Source: Ascochyta rabiei (taxonomy: Eukaryota; Ascomycota; Dothideomycetes; Pleosporales; Didymellaceae). Taken from it: DNA of 64,000 nt. The notes under the pieces are model-generated. The model was not told the origin of the DNA and did not search any database. It saw only the letters and a program-made list of their open reading frames with translations. The DNA is taken from positions 1 through 64,000 of the forward strand of contig NC_082406.1 of assembly GCF_004011695.2 (NCBI RefSeq), in the 5' to 3' direction. A program made the translations under genes and the position numbers. Numbering within the stretch: position 1 is the first letter of the stretch; each line of letters starts with the position of its first letter. Shown here in pieces: positions 1 through 29,232 of this stretch.

Positions 1-107
1 CCTAACCCTAACCCTAACCCTAACCCTAACCCTAACCCTAACCCTAACCCTAACCCTAACCCTAACCCTAACCCTAACCCTAACCCTAACCCTAACCCCT
101 AACCCTC
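1..107 (+). repeat. Telomere, (CCCTAA)n C-strand
   Basis: A tandem array of CCCTAA is uninterrupted for about 97 bases. One extra C (CCCCTAA) follows, then a last repeat before the sequence degenerates. This is the C-rich strand reading inward from a chromosome end, so base 1 is at or very near the physical terminus. About 17 units are visible. TTAGGG-type telomeres are shared by most filamentous fungi and many other eukaryotes. Confidence 0.98.
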
Positions 108-3100
108 TTCCTACACTAAAACCCTAACACTTACTCTTACACTTTCTCTTCTTTACTCCTACTTTCTTTCTTCCTTCTTCTAACCCTTACTCTTACACCC
201 TCTCCTACTTCTAAACCCTCCCTCTTCCTTACCTTTACTTACACTTACTACTCCTTTTACACTCATCTCTACTCTTTCTCTTTTACCTCTACTCTTCTCT
301 TCTTTCTCTTCTTTTCTCTTACCCTACCCTCTTTCCATACACTAAAACCCTAAACCTTACTCTTACTTACACTCTCTTCTACTTTCACCTTAACCTCTTT
401 TTTCTTACTCTTTCTTAACTCCTTCTTCTTAACTCTTTTTCTCTATCTTTTTCTTATCTCTTTTCTTTTTTACTCTTAACACTTACCTTCTCCTACCTAC
501 CTCTTTTTAACTCCTTACTCTCTTCTTCACCTTACACTTACCTTCTTTTTCCTTCTTTACAACTCTAAAACCTCCTTCCTTCTTTTTTTCTTTTCCTACT
601 CTTTCCACTTACTTCTCTCTACTAACCTCTTTTCTAACACTAAAACCCTAACACTCTTCTTACTCTAAAACCCTAACCCTTTTCTCTACTACTACTACTT
701 CTACCTCTACTCCCTTTTTCCCTTTTCTTTTCTTTTCCTCTACTCTTTTCTATTCTTTCTTCTACTTTTCCTTCTATCCTTACTTCTCTTTCTACTACTA
801 CTTTTACTCTTACTTTCTTTTTCTTACTTTCTTCACACTCTACTTTACTTTTCTTCCCTCTCTTCTATTTTCACCTCCTTCTCTTCTACCCTTTTTTTCC
901 CCAACCCTTAAACTCCTCTAACTCTTCTTTCTAACTTAACCCTACCCCTTACCCTTACACTCTTCTTCTTTAACTCTCTTACTCTCTTTCTCCCTCACCC
1001 CTACATTTTCTCCCTCTTTTTCACCTTCACTTCTACTCTCTTCTTCTTAATTCTTCTTCTTAACTCTCCTTCTCTTTCTACTTTTTTACTCCTAACACTT
1101 ACTTCCTTCTACTTACTTTTTTTTCACCTCTTACTTTCTTCTTTAACCTACACTCACCTTCTCCTTCTTTTTCTAAAACTTTACTACAAAACTCTCTTTC
1201 TTCTTTTTTCCTTTTCTCACCTTTCTTTTCCTCAACCTTTACCTACTCTTCCTACACCAAAACCCTAACACTTTTCCTACACTAAAACCCTAACCCTTTT
1301 ACAATCTAAACTCCTTCTCTACTACTACCTCTTCTACTACTTCTACTACTTCTTTTCTCTTTTTACTTATTACCTCTACTTTCTTCTCCTTTTTCCTACT
1401 TTCTTAACTCTTAAACACTACTTTTTCTTTAACTTATTCTACTTCTTCCTTCTCTTTCTTCTACTCTTTTCTACCACTTACTACATCTTTCTCTTTTCTT
1501 CTACTTTTACTTAAAACCCCAACCCTCTTCCTACACTAAAACCCTTATACTTACTCTTACACTCTTCTTTATTCTTACATTAAAACCTTTACACTTTCTC
1601 TTCCTTATCCCTACTTTCTTCCTTCTTCTAATCTTTACTCTCTACTTCTCTCCTTAACTCTTCCTCTTACACTCTACCCTCTCTTACTCTTAAATTCTTC
1701 TTTCCTCCTACTTTCTCTCCCTCACCCTTACCTTTACTTCTACTTATTTCTACTTTCACCCTCTTCTCTACTCTCTCTTTCCTACCTCTACTCTTCTCTT
1801 ACACTTAAACCTTACTCCTTACTTTTACTTACACTCTTACCTCTACCTCTTCTCTTTCCACACTCTCTCCTACTTTAACCCTAACCTCTCTTCTTACACT
1901 AAAACCCTAACCCTCTTTTTACTCTAAAACCCTAACCCTTACACTTATTCTCTCCTTCTTCCTTACTCTACTCTCTTCCTTACTTTACTCTTCTCTTTAT
2001 TCTACTCTCTCCTACTTCTTCTTCTCTTATCTTTTTCTTCCCTCTACTCTTCTACTCACAATACCTATTCTCTAATCCTTACTACTTTTCTCTATCCTTT
2101 CTACTTTTCTTATCCTTTCTACTTCCCTTATCCTTTCCTTTCCTTACTCTACTACTCCTAATCTTCTCTACTTTTTAATAATCTTTCTTTAAACTACTAC
2201 TCTTTCTTTTCCTATTCTCCTTCTTCTCTCTTTTTTAAAACTTTAAATTTTACTCTTCTAACTTTTCTCCAAACCCTATCTCTCTTCTCACACTAAAACC
2301 TAACTATTACTATTACTTTCTTCTCTACTTTCTCTCACTCTATTCCTTACCTTCTTCCTAACACATACACTTACTTTCTCACTTACCCTCTCTCTATCTT
2401 ACTTATTCTCTTTCTACCTTTCTCTTCTCTCTCTAATTTTTTACTCCTAATACTTACTCTCTTCTTCTTATCTTTTCTACTCATCTTTTCCACTTACTTT
2501 TCTCTACTACTCTCTTTTCTAACACCTTAACTTTCTTCCTTCTCTCTTTACACCTATATTTACTCTTTACTCTATCTTTTACTCTACTAACTTAATTTTT
2601 TTTACTTTTCTCTCTAAAATTACACTTTCTTCCTATACTAATATTCCCACCTTTATCCTTACACCTTCTTTCTCTTACTCTTACTTCTTCTCCTACACTT
2701 AACCCCTACTCTTCTCTTTTATTCTTACTCTCTTTCTTACAACTTACTTTCTTTATTTTTTAAAACCTTCTACTTTTATCTCTCTTTTTAACCTTCTTCT
2801 CTCTTCTTTTCTTTTATTTACACTACTTTTACTTCTTACCCTACTAACTTTTCTTTTCTAAACTTATACTCTCTTTCTATACTAACACCTACCTATTATT
2901 CTTACTCTCTTCTTAACCTACTTTACTCTCTTATCTTTCTTTCTTAAACATTATTTTCTTCTTAACTAACCTCTTTTAACTTCTTTTCCTTTTCTTCTAC
3001 TTCTTTCTTCTATCCTTACCTCTTACTTTCTTTACTCTATTCTTATTCTTTCTACTTTTCTAAATTTTCTTCTCAATCTCTCTCTTCTTTCTATCTCTTA

Positions 3101-3703
3101 TCTCTTTCCCTAAACTCTTTATAAACTCTTTAAACATATACTCTCTACTTTTTACTTCTTTTTATACCTTTTCTCTTCTTTTCTCCTTATTTACTTCTTC
3201 CTCAACCTTTTTAAATTTCTAACAAACTACAACTTTCCTTTTTACTTTACTTTTTCCTTTCCTTCCTCTTTCTACACTTTTTCTCTTCAACCTTCTTTCT
3301 TTTCTCAACTTTTACTCTTTCTAATCTTTCTTTTCTTTTCACCTTCTATTTAACTACTCTTTTATTTCATACATCTTTTAATAAACTAACTTCTTCTTCT
3401 ACTTTCTTCTCTTCTTTTTAATTCTTTCTTTTCATCTTTCTCTATTTTCTACTCTTTTTTCTTCATTTACTATCTTTACATCTTAATCACTTTAAATATC
3501 TTTTCTAATACTTTTACACTCTCTCTTTATTAAATACTACATTTAACTATCTTTTCTATCCTACTAACACTCTTTTAACAATTTTTTACCTTTTTCTACT
3601 TCTCTTCTTACTTTATCCTCTCTACTATTCTCTTCTCTTAACAATTCTTTCATTTCTCTTTTCTTTCCTTTTCTTCTTTTATACATCTCTTAACCCTATC
3701 TCT
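108..3703 (+). repeat. Telomere-adjacent tract with no G on the + strand
   Basis: I find no G from base 1 to base 3,703; the first is at 3,704. The tract consists of C, T and A only, mostly CTT, TAC and CTC runs. Scattered telomere-like words (ACTAAAACCCTAACCCT) recur near 110, 350, 640, 1,260, 1,520, 1,890 and 2,290. No ORF of note lies inside. A second, slightly eroded copy starts at 12,444. It looks like degenerate telomere-derived sequence kept C-free on the G-strand. No gene is seen. Confidence 0.9.
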
Positions 3704-4690
3704 GCTACTTGCGCGCTGTTATACTGCTGCATGAACAACGCTACTCTAATTGCTACTACCATTGCGTTGCTGAAAAAAATTCGCCTTAAAACCGCTCTCT
3801 GTACCGCTTATCTATCTCTACAACTGCCTCTTCACTCTTGTGTAACACTTGACGGGCCTACCGCCCACCCACTTTCTCTTCTTCACCCTGCTTACCTGCT
3901 ACTCTTCTCTATCCCGCTTCACGGTCTTAAACACCTCCCCTCCTTCACTCTTAACCGCATCGCTCCGGGGGCACATCCACGGCCCCCCCGCCCAACCCTC
4001 TACCCCCCTCTCCCGTGATACCTTATCACGGGCCCACCGCCCACCCTTATTCTACTCTCTTCTCTCCTTCATCCTTTGCTCGTGATGCCTTATCACGGCC
4101 CACCCACCTCCCCTCTTTCTCCTTTACCCTCTACCGCCCTGCCCAACTGCTTTGTGACACCTGACAGGCCCTCCGCCCGCCCCTCTCTCACGCACTACGG
4201 CATCTACGGGTTCAGGAATGCCTTTCTGGGCTGCGGCACCACAATCGGATTTGCCAAACTTCCCCTAACTACTGTTCTATCTTGTGACAATACTATGTAA
4301 ACGCCCAAAACACCTTGCTCTACGTCATTTTCATCCCGTTCCATCTTTCTAATCCACCTGATACCCTGTTCAAATGCCCTTTCCTCTACCATTCATTCTT
4401 ATACCCGATTTACAAAGCAACTAACCCCGCCCAATCCAAATTCGCGCGATCAACGCGATTGACGCCCTCTTGCACGAACAACTTCTTGTACCTCTCCCAT
4501 CCACCATCCTGCTGGCTCTTCTACCTATTGCGCATGTCTTTCTTAACTACTCTACTATCTATCCAAATTTACTTTGTCCTGACTCTCACTTTCTTCAATA
4601 CGCACGGCTGCTTTCGGATGGGGACTCACTTGGTTTGGTCTGCTCTCTCCGGATTGTGGGCTCTTCCTGGATCGGGGGCTCTTCTTAAAT
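3704..4690. repeat. GC-richer transition zone with degenerate hairpin-bearing repeats
   Basis: The composition changes abruptly here, with CpG and GC rising. Several copies of a degenerate block occur near 3,840, 4,014, 4,081 and 4,152. Each joins a GTGA-CC-TTATCAC or GTGACACCTGAC core to GGGCCCACCGCCCACCC-like sequence. Some copies form short inverted repeats (GTGATA...TATCAC). The zone 3,690-4,300 is closely repeated at 17,600-18,110. The open frames here translate to low-complexity Pro/Ser/Leu peptides and are not convincing genes. Confidence 0.75.
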
Positions 4691-5290
4691 GATCGGCTCT
4701 TACTACTTAGGGGCACTGATGTGGACTCCCTTGGCTTGCGGGGACCACTTTCGGGCCACTTTGGGGGACTACTTTCGGACCACTTGGGGTGGCGCACTAC
4801 TTGGCGCGCTACTTGGGAACCACGTGGGGAACTACTTGGGAACCACTTGGATTGGGGGACCCACTCGGGTTGGACGTGCCACTCGGGTGGGGCAACCACT
4901 TGGGTTGACGCACTACTTGTGGAACTACTCAGGGAACCACGCGGGTTTGTGCTGACTACGCGGCTTGATGCTGACCATGTGACTATGTGGATTATGCTTA
5001 CTGCGCGGGTTATGCTTACTACGCGGTTAATGCTGACTATGCGGGTTGGTGCTGACTACGTGGATTGGGGGATCCGCATGGGTTGGGGGCTCTACTTGGG
5101 TCGGGGGCTCTACTTGGGTTGGGGGCTCTACTTGGGTCGGGGGCTCTACTTGGGTTGGGGGATCCGCATGGGTTGGGGGCTCTACTTGGTTGGGGGTTCT
5201 ACTTGAGTTGGGGGATCCGCATGGGTTGGGGGCTCTACTTGGGTTGGGGGCTCTACTTGGGTTGGCGGGTATCACTCGGGTTGGCGGGTA
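4690..5290 (+). repeat. G-rich minisatellite, 18-bp units
   Basis: From about 5,060 to 5,285 an 18-bp unit (TTGGGGGCTCTACTTGGG, with a GGATCCGCATGGG variant) is repeated about a dozen times. Degenerate relatives (CCACTTGGGG words) start near 4,690. Because 18 is a multiple of three, the frames read as regular six-residue peptide repeats, which are not evidence of coding. The + strand is G-rich here, the reverse of the skew at 1-3,703. A shorter relative lies at 18,370-18,620. Confidence 0.88.
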
Positions 5291-5496
5291 TCACTCGGGT
5301 TGTGGGGACTACTTTGGTCGGTGGCCCTTCTCTGGGCGTTTCTTTCTACGTCTCTGAAGTGTCTGTGTTGCTATTTGGCTGTTTTGCACTTTCTGACTTG
5401 TGATCACCGTGCAGTCGCAAGTCAGCCTACAGCACGTTTCTCCTGACTTCTCCTGACCTAAGGTTTCGGGTTACGGTTATATCAAACACATTCTTT

Positions 5497-8400
5497 CTAG
5501 TCTGCTAAATACGACTGCACATGCCCCTCCTCCCAAGCATATAGGAAACGACACATCTGGCTCGCGTCTCTCTGGCCCATCTTGATCTTTAATCCGAGCC
5601 ACTTGTAAAGCCGGAGCTCATCGCTACCGTGCACAATCGCGGCGTCTTACATCTGCTGCTCCAGCCATGGCGTGCACATCAGTGGCTGGCAGGCAAGCAG
5701 CGCAGCTACTGCTCTCTGGAGCACTCCATCGTACTGGCAAGGCACATGCATCCCTTGTGTCTTAAACGCACCCTGTATGCTTGTTTCCTCCCACTTGTTG
5801 CAGATGGCTTGGGGCGCCCAGCAGTAAAAACACCGCGCATACTTCTCCCACTTCACTTAGTGCATAGATTTCACCTTAGACTCCATTAATGTCATCTGCG
5901 CTCCGCTGGCCTTTGAACAGTCCTTCCAGTCGTGGCGCGCCGGGTCAGCCTGAGTGGCCATGCAGATGGCGCACGCATTGCTCCAGCGCTGGAAGTGCTG
6001 CTCTAGCCGCTCCAGGTCATATACTTTTTGTTCCGTCCTTCGCCGTTGCCGGATCTTAACCCTCCGCTCTTTAACGACCATAGCTCGCTCTATACATCTG
6101 CGCTGCTCCTCTGCTGCCACCGCTGCGGTGTCGGCCTGCGTCTCCTCTGGCTCTTCCTGCTCTTCTTCGACGGCTTGTCGCTTGGTACCACCGGGGTGTC
6201 GCTCGCATAGATCACACTTCGACTCTCCCATCTCGCATTGCTGCCTGTTCTGTCTGCCGTCCATGTGCTTGTCTATCGCGATTCGCCGACAGGATTCGAC
6301 TGTCATGAACTCCTTTGCAGGTCGCTCCAGCTTGTAGCCGAGCGCCTTCTCTACCCTCCCCTCTTTCGTTACATAGCACGCTCTCATAACAATAGACTCG
6401 CTGTCGAGCCCCGTTCGTCCCGCCCGGCCGCTCTCTTGCACATATTGGAGCAGCAGGGGACACATGGCAACGTGGATCACCACCCAGACGCCTGCAGCGT
6501 CGAGCCCAAGACCCAGCATGTTCGTGGCTGTACAAAGCTTCTCTATGCTAGGGTGAAGCTTCGCACCATGCGTGCCTTTTCCTCGTCTGAGCCCATCTGA
6601 CGGTAGTATGCAGAGCACTGCAGAAGCTTCGCAAGCCGTTTCGTCTCGTCCACAGTTGGACAATAGACGATGATCTGCGCCTTGGGTCCGTACCTACTCC
6701 TCTTCGCAGCCACGAGCTTAATAAGTACTTTTCTAGCGTGCCACGTGTGTACTCTAGCACCTGGTACGCAATGTTCGTTCGCGTGGTGCGTTCATCGCGG
6801 CATATGGTTACGGTCTGGGCATCGAGCCCTGCGGTGTGCAAGAAGGCGGGCTGCAGCGTGGGCGGCAAGGTTGCAGTCAGGTAGACAACCTGTGTGCCCT
6901 TCTCCGTCATCTCCACCATCTTGAGGAGGTCTGGCCGCCAGTCCTGTGTCGACTCCAGCAGCACGTGGCACTCGTCTATCACGATACGATCTAGCTGATG
7001 GAGCATGCGCTTTTCGTTAATGAACCTGCCGAACGCCTTCGTGACTGCGCTCTTAGGCGTCACCAGCACAATACGAGCCCAGTACGGCGGTCTTCTTCCA
7101 TCCCACTTCGCGCAGGGGATGCCGAGCTGGTCGCAGCGATCTTGCAGATCGTCTCGCAAGGCATTCAACGGAGCCACGACCACGGAGACGCCGCCTGGCG
7201 AGACGGACGCGGGCAGCATGAACAGCATACTCTTGCCGGTGCCGGTAGCCATAACAACTAGCACGCGCAGCCGTCGCTGCATCACAGCCTTGAGGCTTTC
7301 TTCTTGCTTGCCACGATACTCGGCGTCCGGCCGTCCAGCGAGTCGCCTGAACTCTGCCTTGAGGTCCACCATCGCGAGCGACGACCAGCGCTGGAGCGCC
7401 TGCTTCTCTTGCTGCGCTACCATCTCCGCGCGAACACCGGGGTGCATGCGGCCGTCCTCCCAGGCAGATGCAAACTCCAGCACGCGATGCCAGTCCATGC
7501 TCACCCGCCGGAACTCCTCCCGCTCGGCCATGGTCTGAAAGGGAGACTCCATCATGGAGCGGCCGTAGTTGCCCTCCTCTGTTTCAAGGCTGTGGCCGGA
7601 CTGCAACGCTTGCGCGTTGCTCTTCGCCGGCGCTTTGTTCCAGTAGAGCACTTCCAACCAGTCGCGTGCTTGTCCATCTCTTGCCAGCTCTCGGTGGATG
7701 GCTGGGTAGGCATGCCGCCAGGCGCGGGTGCCGAGAGCGGTGTTCATGTACTGAAAGGTCTGCTTGCGCAGGACACGGCGTATGCGATCGGTGCCCTAGT
7801 ACCCGTCTGGGTTAGCGGATCGTGCCTTCTTACGGTCGGCTTCGCCGTACTCGTCTCCGTCGTCGCTCTCTTCGCTATCGCTCTCGTCGCCCCACTGCTC
7901 CTCCGGCTCTGGCTCCCAGATGAAAGCGGTAGGGCGGGCAACGCCATTGTGCAGCATCTGGAGATCATCTATGAACGGTCGACCGAGCCCGAGGAAGTAC
8001 ACCACCAGCTCACCCACCTCCCGGGGAACATAGCGGTGGATCGTCTTGACACGCTTGCTGAAGCTATACCCCTTGTGGTACGTAGTGGTGAAGGATACCA
8101 GGCCACCCTCTACAAACACCCCCCGATACCCTACCCCGTCTGCACTGTTCTCGCACTGTATCGAGGTAATCTCTGTCCCGCGACCAGGCCCGCCGCCAGA
8201 CATGTGAACAAGCGTGAAGAGGCCTTCTTTAAACCGACGCACTCCTTTCATGTACCTAGCTACAGCGTCATCGCGCCATAGCGTCCGTTCCGGCCGTTGT
8301 GTGCTATCTATCCCACGAATGAATCTCTCCCTTAGCGGAGCCTCGTCCAACACCCGGTCTAGAAGCCAGTCTTGCCATCTATCTAGCTGGTTGTCAGGGT

Positions 8401-10104
8401 GCTTCAGAAAGCTCCAGCCCGTAGCCAGCTCGGCTGGCTGATCGACGAGTTTGTCCACGGACACCTCTGGAAGCGGGGTGGTCCCGGGTCGCACGCAACC
8501 CCTTTCGTCTAGATCCAAGAGTAGGACGTCCTTGAATAGCTGCAACCGCACCGTCTCGCAGAGTCCCTTCACCATCGACCGGAGATCGGCTAGCGAAAAG
8601 CTCTGCTTGTCAATGAGAAGCCGATCTCCATCCCACAACACGATACGGGAGTATTACGTCGCTTTGCCTGTGTTCTAGCTAGCGTACGCAAGCGGAGCAT
8701 TCGATTCATAGGACTGGGTGTGCCTTTAAAGTCGGACAGCGTCATAAACCGTTCAGACATGTCTTTAACTAGCTCATACGCAGTAGGTGCTGTACAAGGG
8801 TCTTTCTGAAGCGCTTTATCTCGCTGGCAGCGGGCATGATGCACTACGAGCGCTTTCGAGGTAGTGATCAAAGCAGACAGCGTTGGCGAGAACTCGTGCG
8901 CCGGAACCTACCCACCGCCATGGTGATCAGGCTTGAGGCCGAGGACAGCCACTCCGCTCAGCAGTGCGCTCTCGTGCTCGTCGCCAGTCAGGCTGTGGTT
9001 GAGCAAGGCGATCCAAAAGCGCAGGCATTGCTCTTCCAGTTTCTCTTTCTTCGCAGCGTCGTCTGAGCGGGCTATTTGCTGGAGTGACACCAAGAGGGCG
9101 TCTTGCGTGCTGGTAAGTTTGTATGGCGGCCGCTCGACCTGGTCATATGTGCGCCACAGGTAGCAGAGGATGCTCACCAGCTTCTGGCTGTACTTCTTGA
9201 TTGTACCGACTCGATGCCTAGCGTAGAAGGGCCGCTCGTTCGATTCTGCGCCCGCCTCACGTCGCTCGATAATCTCCAGTGCGAGTCTGCCGACAACCTC
9301 AGCTCGGCTGCTATCGAACGCTTTTTGTATCAGCCGCTCTATAGCTTTGCAAACATCGCGTAAGCCCGTGTCGTCAAACGCCACTTCTTCCTTCCCACGC
9401 GCGTCTACCTCCCCACCAGCTAGCTGTTTAGCGCGCAGAAGTGCCGCCCTTGGGATACCTTGTAGGTGCGGGACCCATTCTGTGAGCTCTAGCCACGGAT
9501 CAGCCTGCGAACGGATGCCCTCTTTAATCTTATCCTGCGCTGCTGCTGCCTCACGCTCTTCTCGCTGATGCTGGCGATCTGCCTTCACTCTCTGGGAGAT
9601 GTCTGCTAGAGTCGCAGCTCCAACGCTCGTCTCGACTGCAACATACGCCGGCCAGCCAACAGCTCTGAACAAGCGCTGGCAGGATTGGCTGTCTCGCCAT
9701 ACTCGGTTGCGCGAGTGCTTGCTCTTTTGCCTTATATCTCCCCCTCGCTTTTGTTCGTTCACCCAGCCATGCTCATCCTTGCAATGTTTCTGCATGCCCT
9801 GCAGCGAGATGCAGGTATACCAACAACGCTCCGACAAGCATACCAGCCCGTCTTCTCAGCTTTTCAGACCAAAGACGGGCTCCTTAGCCGGCCTTGGTAC
9901 ACGCACGTCTCCTGGACTCCACGCAAGGTTTGGTAGCGCGCGTACAGCTGCCGCCAGGCTCTTGCGCGTAGCGACTGTGACCTTGGGATGGCGCTCTTTG
10001 AGGTGCGTAACGATCTGCGCTGGTGGAATAGCGGTGGCACATGGTTTACAAACTACGACTCGAAGTTCAGGCCGGTGTTCAAACAGCTGCGCAAATAGTT
10101 CCAT
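5497..10104 (-). pseudogene. Broken telomere-linked OrsD/RecQ-type helicase, copy 1
   Basis: Read from the ATG at 10,104, the N-terminus has a C..C...H....H finger (VCKPCATAI...THLKERH), typical of the fungal OrsD (DUF3505) domain. A second C/H motif and a recombinase-like core with GRGTEI (about 8,170-8,186) and a WRH motif follow. Next is a RecQ-like helicase: Walker A ATGTGKS (about 7,235), DECH (about 6,970), TAT and SGRAGR (about 6,430), then the RecQ-type CRR...C...CxxC zinc cluster. Stops interrupt the frame at 9,856, 8,908, 7,796, 5,857 and about 5,644. Frameshifts lie near 8,650, 6,730 and 6,555. The stop at 8,908 replaces a Trp seen in copy 2. The terminal TAG is at 5,497-5,499. The helicase motifs are well preserved, so inactivation is fairly recent. 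An unannotated intron could explain a shift but not the stops. Confidence 0.88.
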
Positions 10105-10401
10105 GGTGTAAGGAGCAGAAGGGACACAAGTGGGCGCTATGCAACACGTCCGTTGGCCTAGTGTTTGCTATCCCCTGGCATATTGATCGACAGACTGTGT
10201 ATCGATCTTGCTTTTGGTTTGATTGCGCTCCCAGCTCCGCTAACGCTGGTTGGTGAGGGCGTCGTGGTACATCCGTGCGCGGCCTGACTTTCGGTGCCGC
10301 GGTGTGACCGCGTCAGAACCTCAACAACACCCAACCCCCTTTCCGCACAACCTTTGTCCGAACTTCCGCTCGCAACCTCATTCGCAGTACACAAGTCGAT
10401 A
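10105..10401. promoter_or_regulatory. Divergent intergenic region of pair 1
   Basis: About 300 bp separate the helicase ATG (minus) from the partner ATG (plus), so the two should share a bidirectional promoter. A short block near 10,285 (GCGCGGCCTGACTTTCGG) resembles GCGCGGACCGACTTTCGG near 23,923, in the equivalent region of pair 2. No TATA box is obvious. The promoter role is inferred from geometry. Confidence 0.5.
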
Positions 10402-12126
10402 ATGCACTGGTTGGCAGCATTAGACAGCGCCGCAGAGCGGTTTGATGGCGGTCGTCGGAGCTTTCCTCTGGCCAGCGAAGCTGACTTCGTTCGCAACTAC
10501 GCGTACGAGCCGCCGAATGAGGACTACGAGAAGCTCTTCTTCTGCCAAGCGACCATCTCACGCTCGCAGCGTGATCCAGGTGCTCGTCCGCACAGCGCAG
10601 GATGGCTGATCCCCACCCGTGACGATGCCAGCGTCTGCAAGCCCGTCTTCATTGCCCACTCCGTCTTGTCAGCGATCTGGCTTCTGCGCGAGACGCTCGC
10701 CGACGACGTCCTGCCTGACAATATCTGGGATCGTCTGGTCTGCGCGGCCGAGTCGCTTGCGGAGGACGGGATGGAAGAGCCGCCGTCTGCGCAGAAGCCC
10801 TTTGCTTCCCCTTCACAACAGGCCTCCGCTCCACCCCCGCAACAAAAGAAGCGGCCACACCTATCTGCGCCGGCCCCTACACTAAAGCGCGCTCGAACAA
10901 CCACCAATAAGACACATCCAGCCAGCCCTTAGCTGTCACAGCCTAGCGAACCGGATGAGCAGCTGAAAGACTCCCCTCTGCACATCACTACCATCTCTAA
11001 CAACAACCGCCGTGCGGAGCAAAAACGCAGCAGGACACTCGCCACTTCGCGTGCGAAGAAGCGGCTTGCCCTTGGTCTGGTAGCACCTGGCAACAAGGCT
11101 CCTCTTCCAGAGCAGGCTGCCTACACCTCTATTGTGCAAAAGGACGAGTCCGTCGTTGCCTAGATCATCAAGCAGCCGGTCTCTGATGACACGGACTTCT
11201 ACAGCTCCACCCAAACTCCCTACCTCACGGCCTGCACCCTTCTAGAGAAAGCGCGCGTGCTTGGAAACCAGTCCTCTCGGTACCACGCTGCCCAGTTCCT
11301 GCAGGCTTGGCGAGAACGTGGCTCACCCTTCAGAGGTGGCAGCGAGCTCGCTGGCAGCCAGAGCAGGACCGGTGCGGGAGCTAAGCGCTTGCAGCTGCTG
11401 AGTGTGCGCAACAATGCTGACAGGGATTTCTGCTTTGCCTGGAACATGTGCACACGTTACGAAGCAGAGCTAGCAGCTGTCCATATCGAGTCTTGATGGG
11501 CGTCAGCTCTCCTAGGTCAAGCATACTCTAACAAGATAGCGCAGATCTGGCATAACGACTTTGTATCTAGCAACGACAGGACGCGAAATCGATACGGAAA
11601 GGGACAGATCCGCACAGAGGCAGTTGCAGCGCTAGTAGAGTTAGTTAGTCCCAACGCCACTGAGAAGGACAAGCAGGTGTTTAGACGACGGTTAGGCCAA
11701 GCCATGCGCTGGTACTCCATTAGTCAGGAGCTAGGCTGGGGCATTCTGACCCTGATACCACACGACGAGATTGCGAATCGCTGGATAGAACGCACCCTCC
11801 GTGTAGGCCAGCTGCATGTCTGGATTGAGCTACTTAAGAAGGAGTGTCCAGACATTTGTGCAGCTAGCAAGGCACTTGAGAACTGGTTAGGGCCAGAGGG
11901 AATTGCTGGCGGGCCCATCAACGAGAAGAAAACGCTGAGCATTGAGGCGGAGGCGCCAGCAACCATCTACGAGGTGGAAGAGATTCAAGACAGCGAAGAC
12001 GACGAAACTGACAACAGCGTTGACGACAGCACCAGAGAGCAAAGTCATGCTTCGCCGAAGAGTCCTACGCCAGCTCCGCGGTTGCGTCAGCTAACTTTGC
12101 TTGAATTGTTCCATCCTGTAGAGTAG
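10402..12126 (+). pseudogene. Partner protein copy 1, broken by in-frame stops
   Basis: It is homologous along its whole length to the intact gene at 24,109-25,794, starting MHWLAALDSAAERFDGG and ending LRQLTLLELFHPVE. I see three in-frame stops and no frameshift. TAG near 10,930 stands where copy 2 has Gln. TAG near 11,161 replaces a Trp (VVA*IIKQP against LVAWIIKQP). TGA near 11,494 replaces an Arg (ES*WA against EYRWA). All fit C-to-T changes on one strand or the other. An upstream in-frame ATG at 10,294 exists, but homology favours 10,402. The protein has a basic NLS-like stretch, a C-terminal acidic EIQDSEDDE motif and a PIP-like tail. I know no family for it. Confidence 0.87.
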
Positions 12127-12443
12127 ATGTTACCTGCGCTCAACTCTGAACATTGTGCTACATACCTTATCGATACTGCCCTACAACATCGCGAACATTA
12201 ATATTGAAACATCTACTATATTCCACTCACGTACCGTATGCTCGATTCTTCTAGAAATTCAACATACAATTGGGACGCACTTTATACACGTTCCGCAATC
12301 GTTGCAGCAATATTTGACTTCAGGAACAGCGAACAAATTCACGCTGAAAAAGCGAACAAATACAGTCGAGTGTCTGTGCTCACGCTAAAATTTACATAGG
12401 CAAAGCGAACAAATACACTGTCTTTGTTCGTATAATCACTGGG
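12127..12443. repeat. Unit-end segment joined to telomere-like sequence
   Basis: No gene is seen. The block AAAGCGAACAAATACACTGT (about 12,401) recurs at about 29,592, with a shorter AAAGCGAACAAATACA just upstream. It continues into TTTGTTCGTATAATCACTGGGA. This is followed directly by ACCCTAACCCTCTTCCTACAC, the sequence found next to the terminal telomere at about 100. The junction looks like a former chromosome end or a telomere-mediated join. Confidence 0.75.
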
Positions 12444-15400
12444 AACCCTAACCCTCTTCCTACACTAAAACCCTAACACTTACTCTTACACTTTCTCTTA
12501 CACTTTCTCTTCTTTACCCCTACTTTCTTTCTTCCTTCTTCTAACCCCTACTCTTACACCCTCTCCTACTTCTAAACCCTCCCTCTTCCTTACCTTTACT
12601 TACACTTACTACTCCTTTCACCCTCATCTCTACTCTTTCTCTTTACCTCTACTCTTCTCTTCTTTCTCTTCTTTTCTCTTACCCTACTCTCTTTCCATAC
12701 ACTAAAACCCTAAACCTTACTCTTACTTACACTCTCTTCTACTTTCACTTTAACCTCTTTTTTCTTACTCTTTCTCAACTCCTTCTTCTTAACTCTTTTT
12801 CTCTATCTTTTTCTTATCTCTTTTCTTTTTTACTCTTAACACTTACCTTCTTCTACCTACCTCTTTTTAACTCCTTACTCTCTTCTTCATCTTACACTTA
12901 CCTTCTTTTTCCTTCTTTATAACTCTAAAACCTCCTTTCTTCTTTTTTTCTTTTCCTACTCTTTCCACTTACTTCTCTCTACTAATCTCTTTTCTAACAC
13001 TAAAACCCTAACCCTTTTCTCTACTACTACTACTTCTACCTCTACTCCCTTTTCCCTTTTCTTTTCTTTTCCTCTACTCTTTTCTATTCTTTCTTCTACT
13101 TTTCCTTTTATCCTTACTTCTCTTTCTACTACTACTTTTACTCTTACTTTCTTTTCTTACTTTCTTCACACTTTACTTTACTTTTCTTCCCTCTCTTCTA
13201 TTTTCACCTCCTTCTCTTCTACCCTTTTTTTCCCAACCCTTAAACTCCTCTAACTCTTCTTTCTAACTTAACCCTACCCCTTACCCTTACACTCTTCTTC
13301 TTTAACTCTCTTACTCTCTTTCTCCCTCACCCCTACATTTTCTCCCTCTTTTTCACCTTCACTTCTACTCTCTTCTTCTTAATTCTTCTTCTTAACTCTC
13401 CTTATCTTTCTACTTTTTTACTCCTAACACTTACTTCCTTCTACTTACTTTTTTTTCACCTCTTACTTTCTTCTTTAACCTACACTCACCTTCTCCTTCT
13501 TTTTCTAAAACTTTACTACAAAACTCTCTTTCTTCTTTTTTCCTTTTCTCACCTTTCTTTTCCTCAACCTTTACCTACTCTTCCTACACTAAAACCCTAA
13601 CACTTTTCCTACACTAAAACCCTAACCCTTTTACAATCTAAACTCCTTCTCTACTACTACCTCTTCTACTACTTCTACTACTTCTTTTCTCTTTTTACTT
13701 ATTACCTCTACTTTCTTCTCCTTTTTCCTACTTTCTTAACTCTTAAACACTACTTTTTCTTTAACTTATTCTACTTCTTCCTTCTCTTTCTTCTACTCTT
13801 TTCTACCACTTACTACATCTTTCTCTTTTCTTCTACTTTTACTTAAAACCCCAACCCTCTTCCTACACTAAAACCCTCATACTTACTCTTACACTCTTCT
13901 TTATTCTTACATTAAAACCCTTACACTTTCTCTTCCTTATCCCTACTTTCTTCCTTCTTCTAATCTTTACTCTCTACTTCTCTCCTTAACTCTTCCTCTT
14001 ACACTCTACCCTCTCTTACTCTTACCTTTACTTACACTTACTTCTACTTTCACTCTCTTCTCTACTCTCTCTCTTCTACCTCTACTCTTCTCTTACTCTA
14101 AAACTCTACCCCTTACTTTTACTTATACTCTTACCTTTACCTCTTCTCTTCCTTTATACTCTTCTACTTTCACCCTAACCTCTCTTCTTACATTCTTCTA
14201 TACCCTTTCTCTTACTTTTACCTTCTTCCTTTTTTACTTACATTCTTATCCCTTTACAACCTTTAAAACTTTCCTTCTACTACTTCTTCCTTTTTTCTAC
14301 TTTTTCTCTCTTCTTACCTTCTTTCTCATCTCTACCCTCCTTCTCTTCTTCTTCTAAACTCTTCTCTTTTTCTTTCTTCTTTTTACTACTTTCCAATTCT
14401 TACCTCTTTTCTAATCTTTCTTAAAACCCTAACACTTTCTTTCTTCTAAAACCTTACCTTAACCTTTTACTCTACACTTCTTTCTTAACTTTTACTTCTC
14501 TTAACTTTTCTTACTCCTCTACCTTCCTCTACGCTTTCTTCTCTACCTTCTATACTTTCTTCTCGTAACATATCTCTTCTTCTTTTCTACTTTCTACTTT
14601 TCGTACTTTTCTTTCTTTCTTTTTATCCTACTTTTTTTATCCTACTTTTTTTATTCTACCTTTTCTTTACCCCTTAACTTTTCTTTACTACTTTCCTTTC
14701 TATACACCTTAACTTCCTCCTACACAACTATTTCTTTCTAACTTTACTCCTTCTTCTTCTTCTTCTTCTTTCTTTATCCTAAAATCTTCACTTACTTTAC
14801 ACTTTACTTCTTTCTTTTTTCTCTTTTAAACTCTACATCTTTCCCTACACTAAAACCTTAACTATTACTTTTACTTTCTTATCTACCTTTTCTCTTACCT
14901 TTATTTTTTACCCTCTTATCTTTTCTTTTTTCTTTTTACTCTTTCCTCTCTCATCTTCTTCCTCTTCTCTTTTCCTTCTTTCCTTCTTACTCTCTTCTAC
15001 CTTTTTTCTTTTTTTCCTTGAATCCTTTCTCAACACTTTAAACACTTATTTCCTATCTCTTACCTCTTTTAACACCTCTTACTACTTTCTACCCCTCTAT
15101 TATTGCTCTAATCTTCTTTAAAACTCTTACTTCCTCTTTTTTCCTCTTTAAATTTTTCTTTCTCTTACTACTTCTATTTTTACTCTTCTCTCTTCTAAAC
15201 TCTAACCTCTTTTCTCTTATTCTTTTTCTATTTCCCCTTCTCCTTTACTTTTCTTAACTTTCTTACTTTTCTACCTTTATTTTAACCTAACTACTTTACT
15301 ACCTTCTCTACTTCTCTTTTCTCCAACATTTTAACTCTCTCTCTTCTCCTTTAACTTCTTCTACCTACTAAACTATTTCTATATTTCACTTTCTTCTTCC

Positions 15401-15990
15401 TTCTTTTTATCTCTCTTCTTACACTACCTACTTCTTTTCTCTTAAACCCCTTCTATTCTTTCTATATTAACACCCTAACTCTCTTCTAACTCTAAAACCC
15501 TAACCCTCTTCTTACTCTAAAACCCTAACCCTTACACTTATCCTCTTCTTCTCCCTCACCCTACTCTTTTCCATACTCTACTTTTTTCTTCACCTTACTC
15601 TTCTCTTTATCCTACTCTCTCCTACTTCTTCTTCTCTTACCTTTTTCTTCTCTTACCTTTTTCTTCCCTTACCTTTTTCTTCCCTTACCTTTTTCTTCCC
15701 TCTACTCTTCTACTCTTAACACCTATTCTCTAATCCTTACTACTTTCCTCTATCCTTTCTACTTACCTTATCCTTTTCTTTCTCTATTCTACTACTCTTA
15801 ACCCTTCTCTATTCTTTAACAATTTTTCTATAAACTATTACTCTTTCTTTTACTATTTACCTTCGTCTCTCTTTTCTAATACTTTAAATTTTACTCTTCT
15901 ACTTTTTTTTCAAACTCTTACTCTCTTCTCACATTAAAACCCTAACTAATACCATTACTTTCTTATCTCTTAATTTTCTTTTATACTATT
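12444..15990 (+). repeat. Internal copy of the G-free subtelomeric tract
   Basis: Bases 12,444 to about 14,030 are nearly identical to about 100-1,730, allowing small indels. I see no G from 12,444 to 14,532. A few scattered Gs appear after that (about 14,533, 14,573, 15,020, 15,105). The later part (14,200-15,990) is of the same style but only partly alignable to 1,800-3,700. There is no coding potential. It marks the start of the second subtelomeric unit. Confidence 0.88.
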
Positions 15991-17600
15991 TTTTTATTAT
16001 TTCTATCTTCTCCTACTTATAAACAACTTTTAACTCTATTCCTTTGTACTTAACTACTACTATGCTTTTTTTCTTCTTTGTTTTCTTTTTCCTTACTACT
16101 ATTACTACGCCACTGTCTTTTTCTCTCTCTTCTGTTCCGCTCCGCGGTCTCAACCACCTCCCTCCCTCACTCTCAACCGCTCCGCTCTGGGGGCATATCC
16201 ACGGGCCCCCCGCCCACCCCTCTTTCTCCCTCACCCTCTTTCTCCCTCACCCTCTTTCTCCCTCACCCTCTTTCTCCCTCAATCTCCTCGACCACCCTCT
16301 TCTCCTCAACCACCCTCTTCTCCTCAACTCCTATCTCCTTTCTCCTTCTTTTACTTTCAACTCGACACTTACTTTTTCCTATCATCAACTTTCCCTTCCC
16401 TCCTCACTGCTCTCTTGTAACACCTGACGGGCCCACCACCTACCCCTCTCTTGCGCGTCACGGCCTTTTTGGTTTGCAGGCGCGTCTCTCTAACGCTCAA
16501 TATGCCCTGTGCACTCTCGGACAGGTTTCCGTCATACCCTCTACCGGTTGCCAGCCTGCAAATGCGGGTAACTCTAACCCTAACCTCAACCTGTGTCTGG
16601 TCCCAAACCTAACTTTACTTATCCGACGTCTTTGTTACGCTTACTCTCTTGTGACGCCTTACGGGCCCCCCATTGGTTCTTCTCCCCTAAACGCTGTCTC
16701 AATCATTCCCACAGTTTGATGCTGTGCTCTTCTGCTTTTGACAACTGATCTGCTTGCTCTGTTAACCTTCTCGCGGGTTACGGGGCCTTTTACGGGCTGT
16801 TTGCTGTCGTCTCTTACTGGTCACAGGTCCTGCTCCTTAACTGCCCGCTTTCCCTCCCTCTCCACCCTTTCGCCTTTCTCCAACGGTCTTCACCACGCTT
16901 CCGTTGACGCTTGCTGCACTCTCGGACGGGTATCTGCTACACCCCTCTTACGCGTCACTAACGCACCGGTTACGGGGGCTGCTTCACGGGTTGCGGACCT
17001 CTCTATAGGCTCGGGGGCACCTCTACGGGTGGTACGCCTTACTATCGGCCTCTTCTTCTTCTGTGCTATTGCCGACCACTGCGCTCGGCGTCCTTGTAAC
17101 ACATTATCACGGCTTACCTCTCTACCGCTTTGCTATGTTAACCTCTTGATGATACCTCATCACGGCTGTGTCGCCTACCTCTTCTCCTTTCTCAACCGCT
17201 GCGCTTATTGTGCATTCCCACGGACCCTCTACCTACCCCTCTTCTCTCTCTTACGCTTATATTACGGGTCTCTTTACGGGTTGCAGCTGTTCTCTACCTG
17301 TTGCGTGTCTTTCTACGGGCCTCTGTTCCTTTGTCTGCTTGCCCCAAATACCGGTAACCCTAACCATACTCTGACTTGCGTACCAGCCCGAACCCAACTC
17401 TAATATTTTATTTTATTTCTGCCTCAACGTTAACCTGCTTACTGCTATCTTACAGCTAAATGTCTGTTCTGTCTTCCCCTCCGCACGTTTGCACTGTTTG
17501 TGTTACTGTTTATTGATTTTGACTTCCTCGATTTTTGCGTGATGCTCTTGCATGCGAGTCAGCCGAGCATCTCCGAAAATGCGCAACCTTAATTCAGCCT
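15991..17600. repeat. Transition zone of unit 2, non-coding
   Basis: This is C/T-rich sequence with more CpG, absent from unit 1 at this position. It contains four copies of a 15-bp CCTCTTTCTCCCTCA repeat (about 16,222-16,280) and two of a 19-bp ACCACCCTCTTCTCCTCAA repeat (about 16,300). Degenerate GTAACACCTGACGGGCCCACC-like blocks lie near 16,415, 16,655, 17,095 and 17,150. Long open frames up to 221 codons are low-complexity Ser/Pro/Leu translations without domains, so I do not call genes. Confidence 0.65.
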
Positions 17601-18660
17601 CAACGCTAACCCGATTCTATCTCTGCTACCTGCGCGCTGTTATACTGCTGCATAAACAACACTTCTCTAATTGCTACTACTATTACGTTGCTGAAAAAAA
17701 ATCCGCTATTAACCCGCTCTCTGTACCGCTTATCTATCTTTATAACTGCCCCTTCACTCTTGTGTGACACTCGACGAGCCTACCGCCCACTCACTTTCTC
17801 TTCTTCACCCTGCTCCTCCTTCACTCTCAATCGCTCCGCTCCGGGGGCACATCCACGGGCCCCACGCCCACCCCTCTACTCCCCCTCTCCCGTGATATCT
17901 TATCACGGCCCCACCCACCTCCCCTCTTTCTCCTTCACCCTCTACCGCCCCGCTCGACTGCTTTGTGACACCTGACAGGCCCACCGCCCACCCTTCTCTC
18001 ACGCACTACAACATCTACAGGTTCAGGAATGCCTTTCTGGCTGCGGCACCACAATCGGTTTTGCCAAACTTCCCCTAACTACTGCTCTATCTTGTGACAA
18101 CACTCTCTAAACCCCCAAAACACCTTTTTACATGTTGTCCCCATCCCAATTAATCTGCCTGAACCCCCTGATGACCTTTTTAAATGCCTCCTCTTCTCTG
18201 TATCTTTCTTTTCCCAAATTCTTGTTGTCTTGATCCTGCGCTTTCTTTTTAATACAAACGGGTGCTTTAGGTCAGGGACTCACTTAGTTTCGGGTGCTCT
18301 GCCTAGATCATGGGCTCTTCTTGGATTGCGTGCTCTTTCTGGGCTGTTGGCTTTTCTTAAATAATCGGCTCTTACTAATTTGGGGGTCACTAATGTGGAC
18401 TTCCTTGATTGGGCGGGGGGACCACTTTTGGACCACTTGGGTTGGTGGTCTACTTTCGGACCACCTAGGGTGGATACCACTTTTGGACCACTTAGGGTGG
18501 CGCACTACTTCGCGCACTACTTGGGGAACCACTTAGGGTGGCGTATTGCTTAGCGCACTAATTGTGGCCTACTTGGGGAACCACTTGGGGAACCACTTGG
18601 GATACCGCTTGGGCTTAGGGGGGCCACCACAATTGGATGATATGATTGGATTCCCTAAAC
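17600..18660. repeat. Second copy of the 3,690-4,900 transition zone
   Basis: Starting at TATCTCTGCTACCTGCGCGC (17,617; TATCTCTGCTACTTGCGCGC at 3,697) the sequence follows unit 1 closely through the hairpin repeats. It then continues into the CCACTTGGGGAACC-type G-rich repeats at 18,370-18,620. The 18-bp minisatellite expansion of unit 1 is absent. The copy supports a large segmental duplication of the subtelomeric unit. Confidence 0.85.
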
Positions 18661-18744
18661 TCTCCTACACTACTCTTCTATCTCGCAACAATATGCTGCA
18701 AACGCCCAAAATACCCAACACATCTTGTTGCTTTCAATTCCGCC

Positions 18745-21700
18745 CTACCGCTTCTTCTTCCCAAACCACTTAACAATCCGCTTAAATGCCTCCCCCTGCT
18801 CTTCCTGCTCCTGCCATCGTACTCCCTCCTCTACCATCCGCTCTTGCGCCTATTCCGTGAAACTATCTGACCACCTGGCCCAAATCGACGCAATCGACGC
18901 GATTAACACGCCACAGTACTAACAACTTCCGCCGACTTTCCTTATCCATCCGCCATCCGCTCAGCTCTCATACCTTTCGCATATCGCCTGCAGGATACTA
19001 CACTTAAAACAACACAAAAACCTCTCCTACTGAATGGAACTCGTAATAATTGTTACTCCTTTGCGAATCTCCTCTGCGTCTGTTGCTGTGTAATCCGCCA
19101 TCCTATAACCTTCACACCCTTCTCCCCACACCCTGCATCGCTGGCATCCCTCCTTCCACTCGTCCAACACCTCTTCTAATCCTTAGATCTCTGCCAAACC
19201 CTTGGTCTGTAACTCCATCTCTCTTTGCGCCGCCAACCTTCGTGCTCTTCCCTCCTGATCAAACGCTAGCCTTTCTTCCTCACCCCCAATCCCTCCTGCC
19301 TCTTGCCCGTCGTCTTCGTCTTCTCTCCTGTTTTCGTCTTCTCTTGCACGCTCTGCCTCTCTCCCGGTCTCACACCCAACACACCCGCTACATTTCTCTT
19401 CGTCGACTTCGCAACCTACTCTGTCTATTCTCCCATCTATCTCCCTATCCAACACAACTCTTATACATCTGTTAGTTGTGATAAACTCCCACATCTCTTT
19501 ATCTACCCTACCCCAACTTCCTTCTTGCATGCTGCCATCTCAACGGTACCTCTCCCCTCTTACAATAATCGCTTCACTCTTCTGCCCATCTCGTCCTGCT
19601 CGCCCGCTTTCTTGCGCATAATCCCGCAACTTTCTGACAATCCTAATGTGGATCACTACTTAGATAGTGGGCGCATCTACCCCTAAACCCAACGCATTGG
19701 TTGCTGTGAAAACTTGCTGTCGTCCCTCTGTCAACTGGCGCACCAACTCTGCCTTCTCGCCTCTGCTCCCTACCTGCCGGTGGTAACAAACACAACCCAG
19801 CAACCTAGCCAATCGAACCGTCTTAGCCACCGTGTCGCAGTACACAATGATCTGGCCGGGCATCAGGTACTGCCGCTTCTTCTCCTCCACCAACTGTACC
19901 AACACCTTGTCTTTGTCTTCCTCCTTCTGATCGTACCGCTGTATCTGGTACTTAACGTTCTTCCGGGTCGTCGGACCCCGGAACCACTGGCATTGCTCCT
20001 TGGCTGGCAACCCTATTAATGCAATAAACTCGCCCTTGTCTCTCGGCCGCATGGTTGCTGTTAAGTACACCAGCTGTGTCTCTGCCTTTACTAAGTCCTG
20101 CAACGCCAACATCTGCGTCCTCTATCTGCTTGTCAAATCCAACACAACGTGACATTCATTAACAACGATTCGGTCCAACCGCCCTATGGCTCGTTGCCGG
20201 TTAATGAAACCCCCAAAACTCTCGCTGACCGCCGATTCGGGCGTGACCAACACTACTGACGCCTATTCCTGCGGTTTCTAACTGTCCCACTCTACACACT
20301 CGATTCCGGCTTAAACGCACCTGTCTTTCAAGTTGCCGCGCAACAAAACCAGTGGCACAACAACGACCGTAACGCTGGTGGAACACGACGCCAGCAACAT
20401 AAACGCCATGCTCTTGCCTGCTCCTGTGCCTATAACTACAACGATCAGACTCTTCTGGTGCATAATGGCTTCGATGGCCGGCCGTTGCACGCTCCTGAAC
20501 CTGGCCCCCTTCCGCACCAAATCTTCCAACTGACACTGGATGTCTACCGTACGCATCTTCCTCTAACGCCAAAATTCTTCCTTAATTGCCTCTTTCCTGA
20601 CCTCCGCTGCTCGCGTTCCTTTCTTAGGCTGCTTCTCCAACGCCGACTTAAATAACAAAAACCAATGCCATTCTATGCTCACTCGCCGCAATGCCACTCG
20701 CTAGGCCTCGGTACTGAACGGCGACTTGGTGATGGGTCTCCCGTAAACTGTGCCGCCAATCTTGGAGCTGTGCCCTGTCTGTATGTCGAACGCCTCGTCC
20801 TCTTCGTCCTCATCTTTATCACCCTCCACGACCGCCTTAATTACCACTTTGTTGTTAATGTATCTTTAATATATTGCCTTAGTGCTATGTCTCTACAACA
20901 TAATGTTTAATTTTACGCCTAACCACCGTATCAATACGCGCTAGATCGCCTGCCGAACCCGGTTGGTATCCCATTGCTCGGGTCCACGCAACGACGGTCC
21001 CTCCTCTTCTTCGTCGTCTTCGTCCGCGCCCTGTCGCCAACCATCCCTCCTACCCTCACCCTCGTCGCTCTCCCGTGCTCTTTTTCCACGTTGCGGCCGT
21101 GCCTACGGCTCCTCCTTCCTTGGCTCCCATATGAATGGGCTGGCTTCCTTAGCTGCCCCTCTCCCAACAGCACCCTCTAGCTTCCTCCAAAACAGCATAA
21201 CCATCCACAAATAATAAAACAACAATTTGCCTACCTTACGCGGTAAATAACAGTAGATGATCTTGGCCTTTGTGCTAGCCCTGATGCCTTTGTGGTACAT
21301 GGTCACATACACCATCAACCCGTCCTTAATAAACACACCACAGCTCTCGCCATTCGGACTGTTCATGTGCTGGACCGTTACCACTTCCGTTCCGCGTGCT
21401 GGCTGCCCCCCGGTCATGTGCACTAAGACTAACAAATGCTCTTAGAACGCTTGTATGGCCTTCTTGTATTTTCTTACTGCCTGCGCTCTCTACACTACCC
21501 TGCGTCCTTCGGGTACGGATGGATTGGTGGCTTAAACGTCTACAAATGCCTCTTGTAACCTCTTCTTGTGGATCACGCGATGAGCCAACTAATTCTTCCT
21601 GTCAACGCCTCTGAACGTGTTGCGCTTGTCCTGGAAAAAATTCCACCCAACCTTCATCTCGGCTGGGTTGTCGACGATGCTGTCCCAATCAATGGCTGGC

Positions 21701-23568: not shown

Positions 23569-24108
23569 CTTCTGATTTCCAGTTGGGCTCTATTTACTAT
23601 CTAAACTTGTGTCTTCCCCTCTCCTTACCAACCTCTTTAATTTCATATCCCTCTGTTGTATCACCATTCTATATTTGGCCGATATCCCTATGTTCTTTGA
23701 TTGGATGGGTGGATGCTATGTAGTCTGCGCAATGACGATCAAACCTCTGCACGGTTCTGCCTCACCAAAACTACGCGGACAACGTTGCACAGTGTTTCTG
23801 TGCAAGTGCAACTTAAAACACTATATCTGAATTTCTAAAATCTTACCTAAAAAAGATTATTACTGTTCACCCTCTTGAAGTTAGGTGGCTGGTTGGTGTG
23901 GTGTGGTGTGGTGATGCGCTGGGCGCGGACCGACTTTCGGCGGCATTTTGTACGAAAGTTCAGCGGCCACCACCCTTGACCGTTCCACCACTACACCGGC
24001 TACTACCCTATACATTGATCAATTACCTCTTACATTAGTTATCTACCTTCTTAGTTAGTTACCTACCTTCTAAATTAGTTACCTGCCTTCTAAATTATTA
24101 CCTACCTT
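23569..24108. promoter_or_regulatory. Divergent intergenic region of pair 2
   Basis: This 540-bp gap separates the two start codons. It includes a segment (about 23,724-23,884, with CCTCACCAAAACTACGC and ACAACGTTGCACAGTGTTTC) repeated downstream of the partner gene at about 25,932-26,205. It also has the GCGCGGACCGACTTTCGG block shared with pair 1. Near the partner start, short TTAGTTACCTACCTTCTAAA-like repeats occur (24,000-24,108). The promoter function is inferred. Confidence 0.5.
23724..23884. repeat. Direct repeat, left copy (flanks the intact partner gene)
   Basis: Matching words in order are TCAAACCTCTGC, CCTCACCAAAACTACGC, ACAACGTTGCACAGTGTTTC and ATTACTGTTCACC. The right copy is at about 25,932-26,205, where the last word lies farther away because of extra sequence. 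Confidence 0.75.
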
Positions 24109-25794: not shown

Positions 25795-25931
25795 TGTTCC
25801 TCCAGCGTGGGGTACCTACCGTGCAGACATGTAGTGTTAGTAGGCTTCTTGTAATTAAAAATTGTTGCTGCAGGTATTACATTTTTATAGTAGTGTTGCG
25901 TGTTGCAGGTATTCTGGTTTCACGTTAGTTC

Positions 25932-26205
25932 GGTGCAATAACGGTCAAACCTCTGCCTCACCAAAACTACGCAAACAACGTTGCACAGTGTTTCTACGTA
26001 AACGCAACATAGCACCCTAAATCTGAGTATGTTAATTAAATCCGCAGGCACAGTTTAGGCTCTGGCAGCTTTGTGCGTTAAGTTGCCGCTCACTGTAACC
26101 TTAACTGATTTCTTTAAGGTTTTGAAATCAGTAATGCCCCTGTTGTTCAGAACGCTTGGACCTCTAGGAAATCCGCAAGACCATTACTGTTCACCTTCTT
26201 GTAGT
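25932..26205. repeat. Direct repeat, right copy (flanks the intact partner gene)
   Basis: It repeats the left copy at 23,724-23,884 in the same orientation. The block abuts the 3' truncation point of helicase copy 3 at about 26,210. This suggests recombination between divergent promoter regions created the present order. Confidence 0.7.
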
Positions 26206-26209
26206 TAGA

Positions 26210-29200: not shown

Positions 29201-29232
29201 CAGAGAATGGCATCGCAATTTTTAAGCAACAC
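26210..29232 (-). pseudogene. Helicase copy 3, 3'-truncated after helicase motif Ia
   Basis: A single frame runs from about 29,232 down to about 26,210 with several in-frame stops. No ATG starts it; the frame after the last upstream stop begins with GTG, so the start may be lost. The OrsD finger reads VCKDY...HLLQHH, so the second zinc Cys of the CxxC pair is now Tyr. A second finger (CRTCNYI...HYKKDH) is intact. The recombinase-like core is the best preserved in the window: QPGRGSEI (about 27,280-27,300), RYHKS, and HTLDYRHTAVGLG (about 26,920-26,950). Walker A is GGGKS (about 26,400). Homology ends soon after NLVERI..GVECIEW. Motifs II-VI and the zinc cluster are missing, so this copy cannot be an active helicase. 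Confidence 0.87.

Follow-up and report, generated by a model that had tools for sequence, protein, structure and literature searches.

A tentatively proposed capping element with a G-free outer arm at the chromosome ends of the fungus Ascochyta rabiei

The Y' elements of yeast spread by homologous recombination, and HeT-A/TART, MoTeR and FoTeR are oriented elements that are added at chromosome ends. Subtelomeres with telomere-linked helicases (TLHs) are described for M. oryzae, U. maydis, Metarhizium, F. oxysporum and Z. tritici where, in the portions of these accounts that were available, a RecQ-type helicase gene lies beside the telomeres and is duplicated between ends (PMC12857005; PMC4522978; PMC11893274). 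TLH function was still called unclear in 2024, as stated in the available part of one of them (PMC11893274). The stretch considered here, the window, comprises the 64,000 nucleotides at the tip of contig NC_082406.1 (C2) in the genome of one strain of Ascochyta rabiei (GCF_004011695.2; 23 contigs, 40.9 Mb). It starts with a telomere and a tract lacking G on the forward strand, and this tract is the outer arm of a helicase-bearing unit which may be a mobile element that caps the chromosome ends.

The longest G-free run in the window is exactly 1-3703, with 0 G, 690 A, 1219 C and 1794 T, in agreement with an earlier note on this DNA which had described the absence of G from the forward strand and a loss restricted to that one strand. 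The run is composed of the terminal CCCTAA telomere array at 1-106 (17.5 copies, 98%, according to Tandem Repeats Finder) and the tract proper at 107-3703, which holds 100 CA sites and is without CG or TG; features given here without a strand have none assigned. All further G-free runs of at least 120 nt in the window (2089, 759, 416 and 180 nt) are situated in a second, older tract at 12444-16045 with 6 G in total.

The comparison of all chromosome ends called for earlier, which leaves C4L aside, has been carried out by direct reading of 32 ends and, for 11 right ends, from their matches to a tract query of 1.2 kb; ends are designated by contig and side, C4R being the right end of contig C4. 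The tract or a diverged relative is present at 40 of the 43 readable ends (29 of the 32 read directly and all 11 match-only ends), with query matches mostly no more than about 210 bases from the contig end, and about 850 at C13R. At least 1000 nt from the tip are G-free at 28 of the 32 directly read ends, C18L has a few G, and G is scarce in all of the many diverged tracts (about 65-98% identical). The tract is lacking at C19L, C8R and C17R, where it is dispensable and the telomere directly adjoins other, G-containing DNA, at C19L, as judged by eye, the 18-bp array of the unit. The telomere repeats on non-tract DNA at these three ends look as if healed after breakage.

At 32 ends the tract belongs to a larger unit with a length of about 10 to 12 kb (12.4 kb for unit 1 of the window). 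This unit begins with the telomere, continues inward with the G-free tract as its outer arm and a telomere-linked helicase of the RecQ type, and terminates in a precise inner end, TATAATCACTGGGA. The inner terminus of unit 1 (12328-12444, plus strand), with TATAATCACTGGGA as its last bases, contains three direct AGCGAACAAAT half-sites and a 12-nt inverted repeat (12406-12417/12419-12430) located 14 nt from the unit end. A query with the 144 bases that directly precede the second tract gave 37 matches in the genome, one of them partial; 32 of these are located 10.4-12.5 kb from a chromosome end, and the other 5 lie deeper inside. All 37 inner junctions were read; they end in TATAATCACTGGGA or a one-base variant thereof, the DNA beyond differs, and merging of near-identical flanks leaves 32 distinct junctions. 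The first base past the unit end is G at 36 of the 37, the sole other one being 12444/12445 of the window, where unit 1 is joined onto telomere repeat. With respect to location (n = 36), 13 junctions fall within G-poor tracts and 10 within other parts of older units, and the DNA at the remaining 13 matches none of the references supplied.

The target base could be read at junctions for which an uninterrupted homologue with at least 80% identity is available, which applies to 21 junctions representing 17 distinct sites, while C19R, C9R and C9L were excluded as their homologues fall below 80% identity. The uninterrupted homologue has G at 17 of these 21 junctions and 13 of the 17 distinct sites, divided into 8 of 8 sites outside tracts and 5 of 9 within tracts. 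The 11 older tracts counted contain 23 G among 26,697 bases, and the chance of 5 of 9 tract sites falling on G amounts to P 6e-14, or 1e-10 on the assumption of 0.4% G. Insertions in old G-poor tracts often coincide with one of the few Gs present. All three Gs in the C12L tract correspond to insertion sites, namely those of C13L (1014), C22L and C5R (1155), and C20L (1234), and in the outer arm of the older unit 2 of the window (12445-16045; G at 14533, 14565, 14603, 15020, 15105 and 15865) the G at 14603 corresponds to the C10L insertion site and the G at 15865 to that of C20L, with which it shares a 13-mer. Non-tract targets favour T at position +5 (14 of 22, P 5e-4).

Substitutions that involve G are likewise about tenfold scarcer than expected between diverged tracts. 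With W1 as the reference, clean substitutions amount to 133 C/T, 22 A/C, 31 A/T and 7 with G, where a strand-symmetric model, for which the same sites served as calibration, predicts about 60 with G, and with the C15 internal copy as the reference 6 G substitutions stand against about 60 expected. In six stricter settings, G substitutions are still below expectation (P 0.0024 to about 1e-13). As a yardstick, 29 of 46 clean substitutions involve G in the longest comparison of units 1 and 2 outside the tracts.

The TLH region of unit 1 (5857-9837, minus strand) consists of open reading frames (ORFs) 8908-9837, 7796-8641, 6548-7747 and 5857-6663, which read toward the telomere. As in TLHs, the Pfam families PF00270 and PF00271 are detected no more than about 10 kb from the telomere, in ORFs 6548-7747 and 5857-6663, and the gene recurs at many chromosome ends, as judged from the positions of the inner-terminus copies. 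We take the helicase to be of the RecQ type rather than another DEAD helicase, going by the TLH context. The DEAD/Helicase_C part is preceded by a recombinase-like domain, homologous to a part of ORF 36504-42881 (E 8e-14), for which a tyrosine-recombinase catalytic-domain fold is predicted. Such a predicted domain stands ahead of the helicase in 7796-8641, 26299-27369 and 36504-42881. R163, K200, R286 and Y330 are invariant in nine of nine domains, and position 321 is His in six and Y or R in the other three; which of these positions are catalytic is presumed from the pattern R...K...R...H/W...Y. The predicted domain is a candidate for the joining enzyme of the unit.

Because the inner end is joined before G at 36 of 37 junctions, the G-free arm would be nearly devoid of landing sites. 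The balance is even, in our judgement, as to whether the unit joins immediately before G and the arm is a zone that offers its own unit almost no such site. The wider proposal, according to which a telomere-terminated transposon with a recombinase-helicase fusion keeps the chromosome ends of this fungus, inserts exclusively before G and possesses its 3.6-kb G-free arm as an evolved target-free shield, is put forward tentatively and with some doubt. Mechanistically, the joining may be carried out by the recombinase-like domain within the RecQ-type helicase that the unit itself encodes, and every joining would replace all DNA outward of the target base, such that a G in the arm would be a cut-back point. 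An arm that gains a G would become a landing site, be cut back there and receive a new G-free arm, a re-capping filter which can equally be read as self-immunity of the unit, with the arm as a selected shield or as the outcome of a passive filter. The supply of G would be low if the tract had been seeded by G-free telomere-like DNA and had changed mainly through slippage of 1-2 nt, while the scarcity of target sites for repeat-induced point mutation (RIP) would permit many near-identical tract copies to persist.

A number of observations weigh against this proposal. The inner end was not found at 10.4-12.5 kb for eight tract-bearing ends (C4R, C6L, C7R, C11L, C12L, C13R, C16R and C18L). Several terminal tracts hold unhit Gs (C4R 2, C6L 3, C12L 3, C14L 1, C18L more), and the filter would therefore be leaky. 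These Gs, together with the 4 of 17 distinct sites at which the homologue is without G (A at C1R and C10R, T at C15L, and the junction 12444/12445 of the window on ACCCTAACCC), speak against a strict G rule; at C1R, C10R and C15L the target copy could have gained a G or the unit end could bring one. The remainder of the unit contains many Gs and is targeted too, with C7L and 9 further distinct sites falling on non-tract parts of older units, so that the protection by the arm would extend to only about 30% of the unit. The expected numbers of G substitutions rest on a simple strand-symmetric model, and a slippage-dominated mutation supply alone might exclude G. With respect to the recombinase, the structure model has a mean predicted local distance difference test (pLDDT) score of 69.5, with values below 50 in the stretch that contains the proposed His and Tyr, and a Foldseek search with this model gave no match below E 0.29.

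The alternative that survives best, although doubtful, is a passive founder effect, whereby the tract derives from G-free telomere-like, pyrimidine-rich DNA in which slippage, duplication and end exchange create no G and no target is avoided. CCCTAA words are indeed several-fold above expectation in most bins, with telomere hexamers in W1 numbering 12, 17, 13, 20, 4, 3 and 1 per 500 bp from the tip where 1 to 2 are expected, and in 9 of 14 copies the innermost bin holds at most 3 of them. The 16-mer ACACTAAAACCCTAAC recurs in eight copies with at most one mismatch on the plus strand (113, 339, 637, 662, 1254, 1279, 1896 and 1921, range 113-1936; mean 0.00 in 30 order-2 Markov sequences), and no copy is found further inward in the tract than 1936. 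The outer half of the tract exceeds order-3 Markov sequences in lag-6 self-identity (z 5.5, and 4.3 once telomere hexamers are masked), while the inner half has no lag-6 signal against the same sequences (z 0.2); the earlier characterization of the sequence as not periodic is consequently not entirely accurate. Controls are mixed, as at lags 12 and 18 the control flank reaches z values of 3 to 4 and masking of the telomere hexamers removes the lag-6 signal in two internal tract copies. Taken with these controls, the telomere-like words and the outer-half echo suggest that the tract is of partly telomeric origin.

Mutations are also consistent with a passive founder. In a comparison of 14 near-identical left ends (flank, 3704-8000; sites with clean neighbours counted), the tract changed by 44 indel events, 3 RIP-type changes and 1 other substitution (A-to-G). 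Rarer-allele 9-mers are somewhat over-represented (0.73 versus 0.58 seen at least three times, P 0.016, 230 events). Between units 1 and 2, identity reaches 93% in the outer tracts (97-1898 versus 12446-14192) compared with 65-85% in other aligned pieces, which suggests arm exchange between unit families. On the other hand, a passive founder leaves the insertions on the rare Gs of old tracts unexplained, and the C/T, A/C and A/T substitutions of the diverged tracts, almost none of them with G, speak against it. Moreover, a composition of 48% T and 18% A is far from that of CCCTAA, and the telomere words fade unevenly in several copies. A six-base ancestor modelled with a cyclic hidden Markov model was rejected, as periods 5, 6 and 7 fit about equally well with 5 slightly best, and a template-copying test on substitutions was too weak to be retained.

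An Ascomycete telomerase RNA match is located on the minus strand at C2:1445287-1445366 (38.8 bits versus a cut-off of 30), and its template TTAACCCTAATC, assigned by position about 970 nt upstream of the match, has G-containing flanks. The recurring 16-mer of the tract was not found in the telomerase RNA stretch beside this putative template. Template read-through as the source of the tract was rejected as unlikely, because G adjoins the putative template and the 16-mer is missing from the RNA. Degenerate telomere addition, one of the origins proposed in the earlier note, is partly supported, the excess of CCCTAA words speaking for it and the telomerase RNA against an origin by template read-through.

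Unlikely is an explanation by RIP-proofing, in which at 40 ends only DNA without CpA or CpG on either strand survives, a G-free strand being one such case. Among the 14 left ends, 326 columns are variable in the flank, mostly C-to-T and G-to-A, as opposed to 20 in the tract, 4 of them with clean neighbours. RIP-type changes dominate the flank with 243 sites versus 9 other and 31 ambiguous, and C followed by a purine (CpR) changed at 258 of 1180 sites (130/568 on the plus and 128/612 on the minus strand) versus 6 of 1265 for C followed by a pyrimidine (CpY). CpA in the tract changed at 3 of 98 sites, all in C16L and no more than about 630 bases from the inner boundary, versus 130/568 for same-strand CpR in the flank (Fisher P 4e-7), and the density of RIP-type CpR on both strands is 28 per kb in the tract versus 280 in the rest of unit 1. 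The tract is thus repeated DNA almost unharmed beside RIP-destroyed DNA. RIP-proofing requires, however, only that C precedes a pyrimidine and G follows a purine, and RIP does not account for the missing G because the RIP-safe AG and GG are absent as well. Among the residual tract Gs (24 listed, 21 distinct, C18L excluded), the preceding base is C or T 18 times and A three times, a placement close to random and unlike that of RIP survivors; RIP as the purger of G was rejected, the residual Gs not being in RIP-safe contexts.

Very improbable is the strand-specific deamination suggested earlier as one hypothesis, by which a G-strand exposed through end resection or R-loop formation lost its cytosines. 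The limitation of the loss to one strand speaks for it; flank changes, however, are strand-symmetric, none of 466 non-RIP C sites on the G-strand of the flank shows C-to-T, A as the expected product is less common in the tract than either C or T, and C19L, C17R and C8R retain G beside the telomere. A C-free telomeric RNA is possible, judging from helicase ORFs that read toward the telomere. The G-strand is essentially unstructured like any C-free strand (minimum free energy -1 kcal/mol for 901 nt, not better than shuffles). An artefact of assembly or base calling has next to no probability, as there is no direct sign of it beyond 41 of the 44 tract indels lying in or adjoining same-base runs, some of which may be read errors, while the many diverged tracts are all G-poor and the flanks of tract ends have normal G plus end-specific RIP scars.

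The remaining parts of the window complete the picture of the units. In unit 1, a C-rich transition with an 18-bp array (3704-5318, the array at 5056-5318; sequence and tandem-repeat analysis) leads from the tract to the helicase gene, and an ORF of unassigned family (10294-10932, plus strand), in which a Pfam scan gave no family below E 0.1, is by ORF list and DNA alignment a relative of ORF 24109-25794, the DNA at 10429-12022 being 65% identical to 24136-25690. Beyond its arm, unit 2 (16046-29633) contains this plus-strand ORF 24109-25794 and the helicase ORFs 27583-28398 and 26299-27369 on the minus strand, and its inner terminus TGTATAATTACTGGGA ends at 29633, followed by G. Each unit has in this way a second ORF opposite in strand to the helicase. 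A tandem repeat of 101 bp (33796-34128) whose CpR content is ordinary is embedded in RIP-depleted AT-rich DNA. Further inward, ORF 36504-42881 (minus strand, 2125 aa, 30% GC) is an open AT-rich helicase reading frame with the recombinase-helicase architecture of the units; it has 176 RIP target sites versus 352 in synonymous shuffles (sd 8.3), no stop, no Trp and few Gln or His codons, and looks RIP-adapted while remaining open. A low-GC open subtelomeric RecQ gene is mentioned for M. graminicola in the available part of an earlier account (PMC4522978). Finally, the C11L tract harbours at 2048-3890 an element with terminal inverted repeats and, by eye, a TA target duplication, and the tract is therefore not immune to other elements.

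The constant inner end on 32 sequences, the one-base target rule and the predicted recombinase domain turn TLHs into a testable candidate for a chromosome-capping mobile element. The G-free arm is a possible case of target-site avoidance clearing kilobases of one base, and the tract provides a natural example of repeated DNA nearly intact next to RIP-damaged DNA.

Like the TLH subtelomeres of other fungi, the unit described here has a RecQ-type helicase gene near the telomeres at many ends, while the available portions of those accounts describe neither a G-free arm nor a G target, and neither a precise inner end nor a recombinase domain (PMC12857005; PMC4522978; PMC11893274). Yeast Y' elements are terminal helicase-bearing units common to many ends as well (PMC4522978), whereas the unit here has one constant inner end on 32 different sequences. 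With HeT-A/TART, MoTeR and FoTeR it shares being oriented and added at ends; unlike in these telomeric retrotransposons, it has a helicase that is oriented outward and an outer end made up of tract and telomere. Pfam scans of 9 of the 13 window ORFs of at least 200 aa detected no reverse-transcriptase family. The fungal tyrosine-recombinase DNA transposons Crypton and Starship would resemble it in their tyrosine-recombinase fold, which is predicted here, and in a preference for a short target. Here, however, the predicted recombinase is fused to a RecQ-type helicase and only the inner end is fixed, with tract and telomere outward (left ends read over 10 kb), and DUF3435 had no match in the Pfam scans of the 9 window ORFs. 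The literature searched, with most subscription journals outside it and some papers available in part, showed no report of a G-free or C-free subtelomere arm, of an inner end that is fixed and joined to a G target, or of a recombinase domain in TLHs. While TLH subtelomeres as such are already known, new with respect to that literature are the G-free arm, the fixed inner end before G and the predicted recombinase domain.
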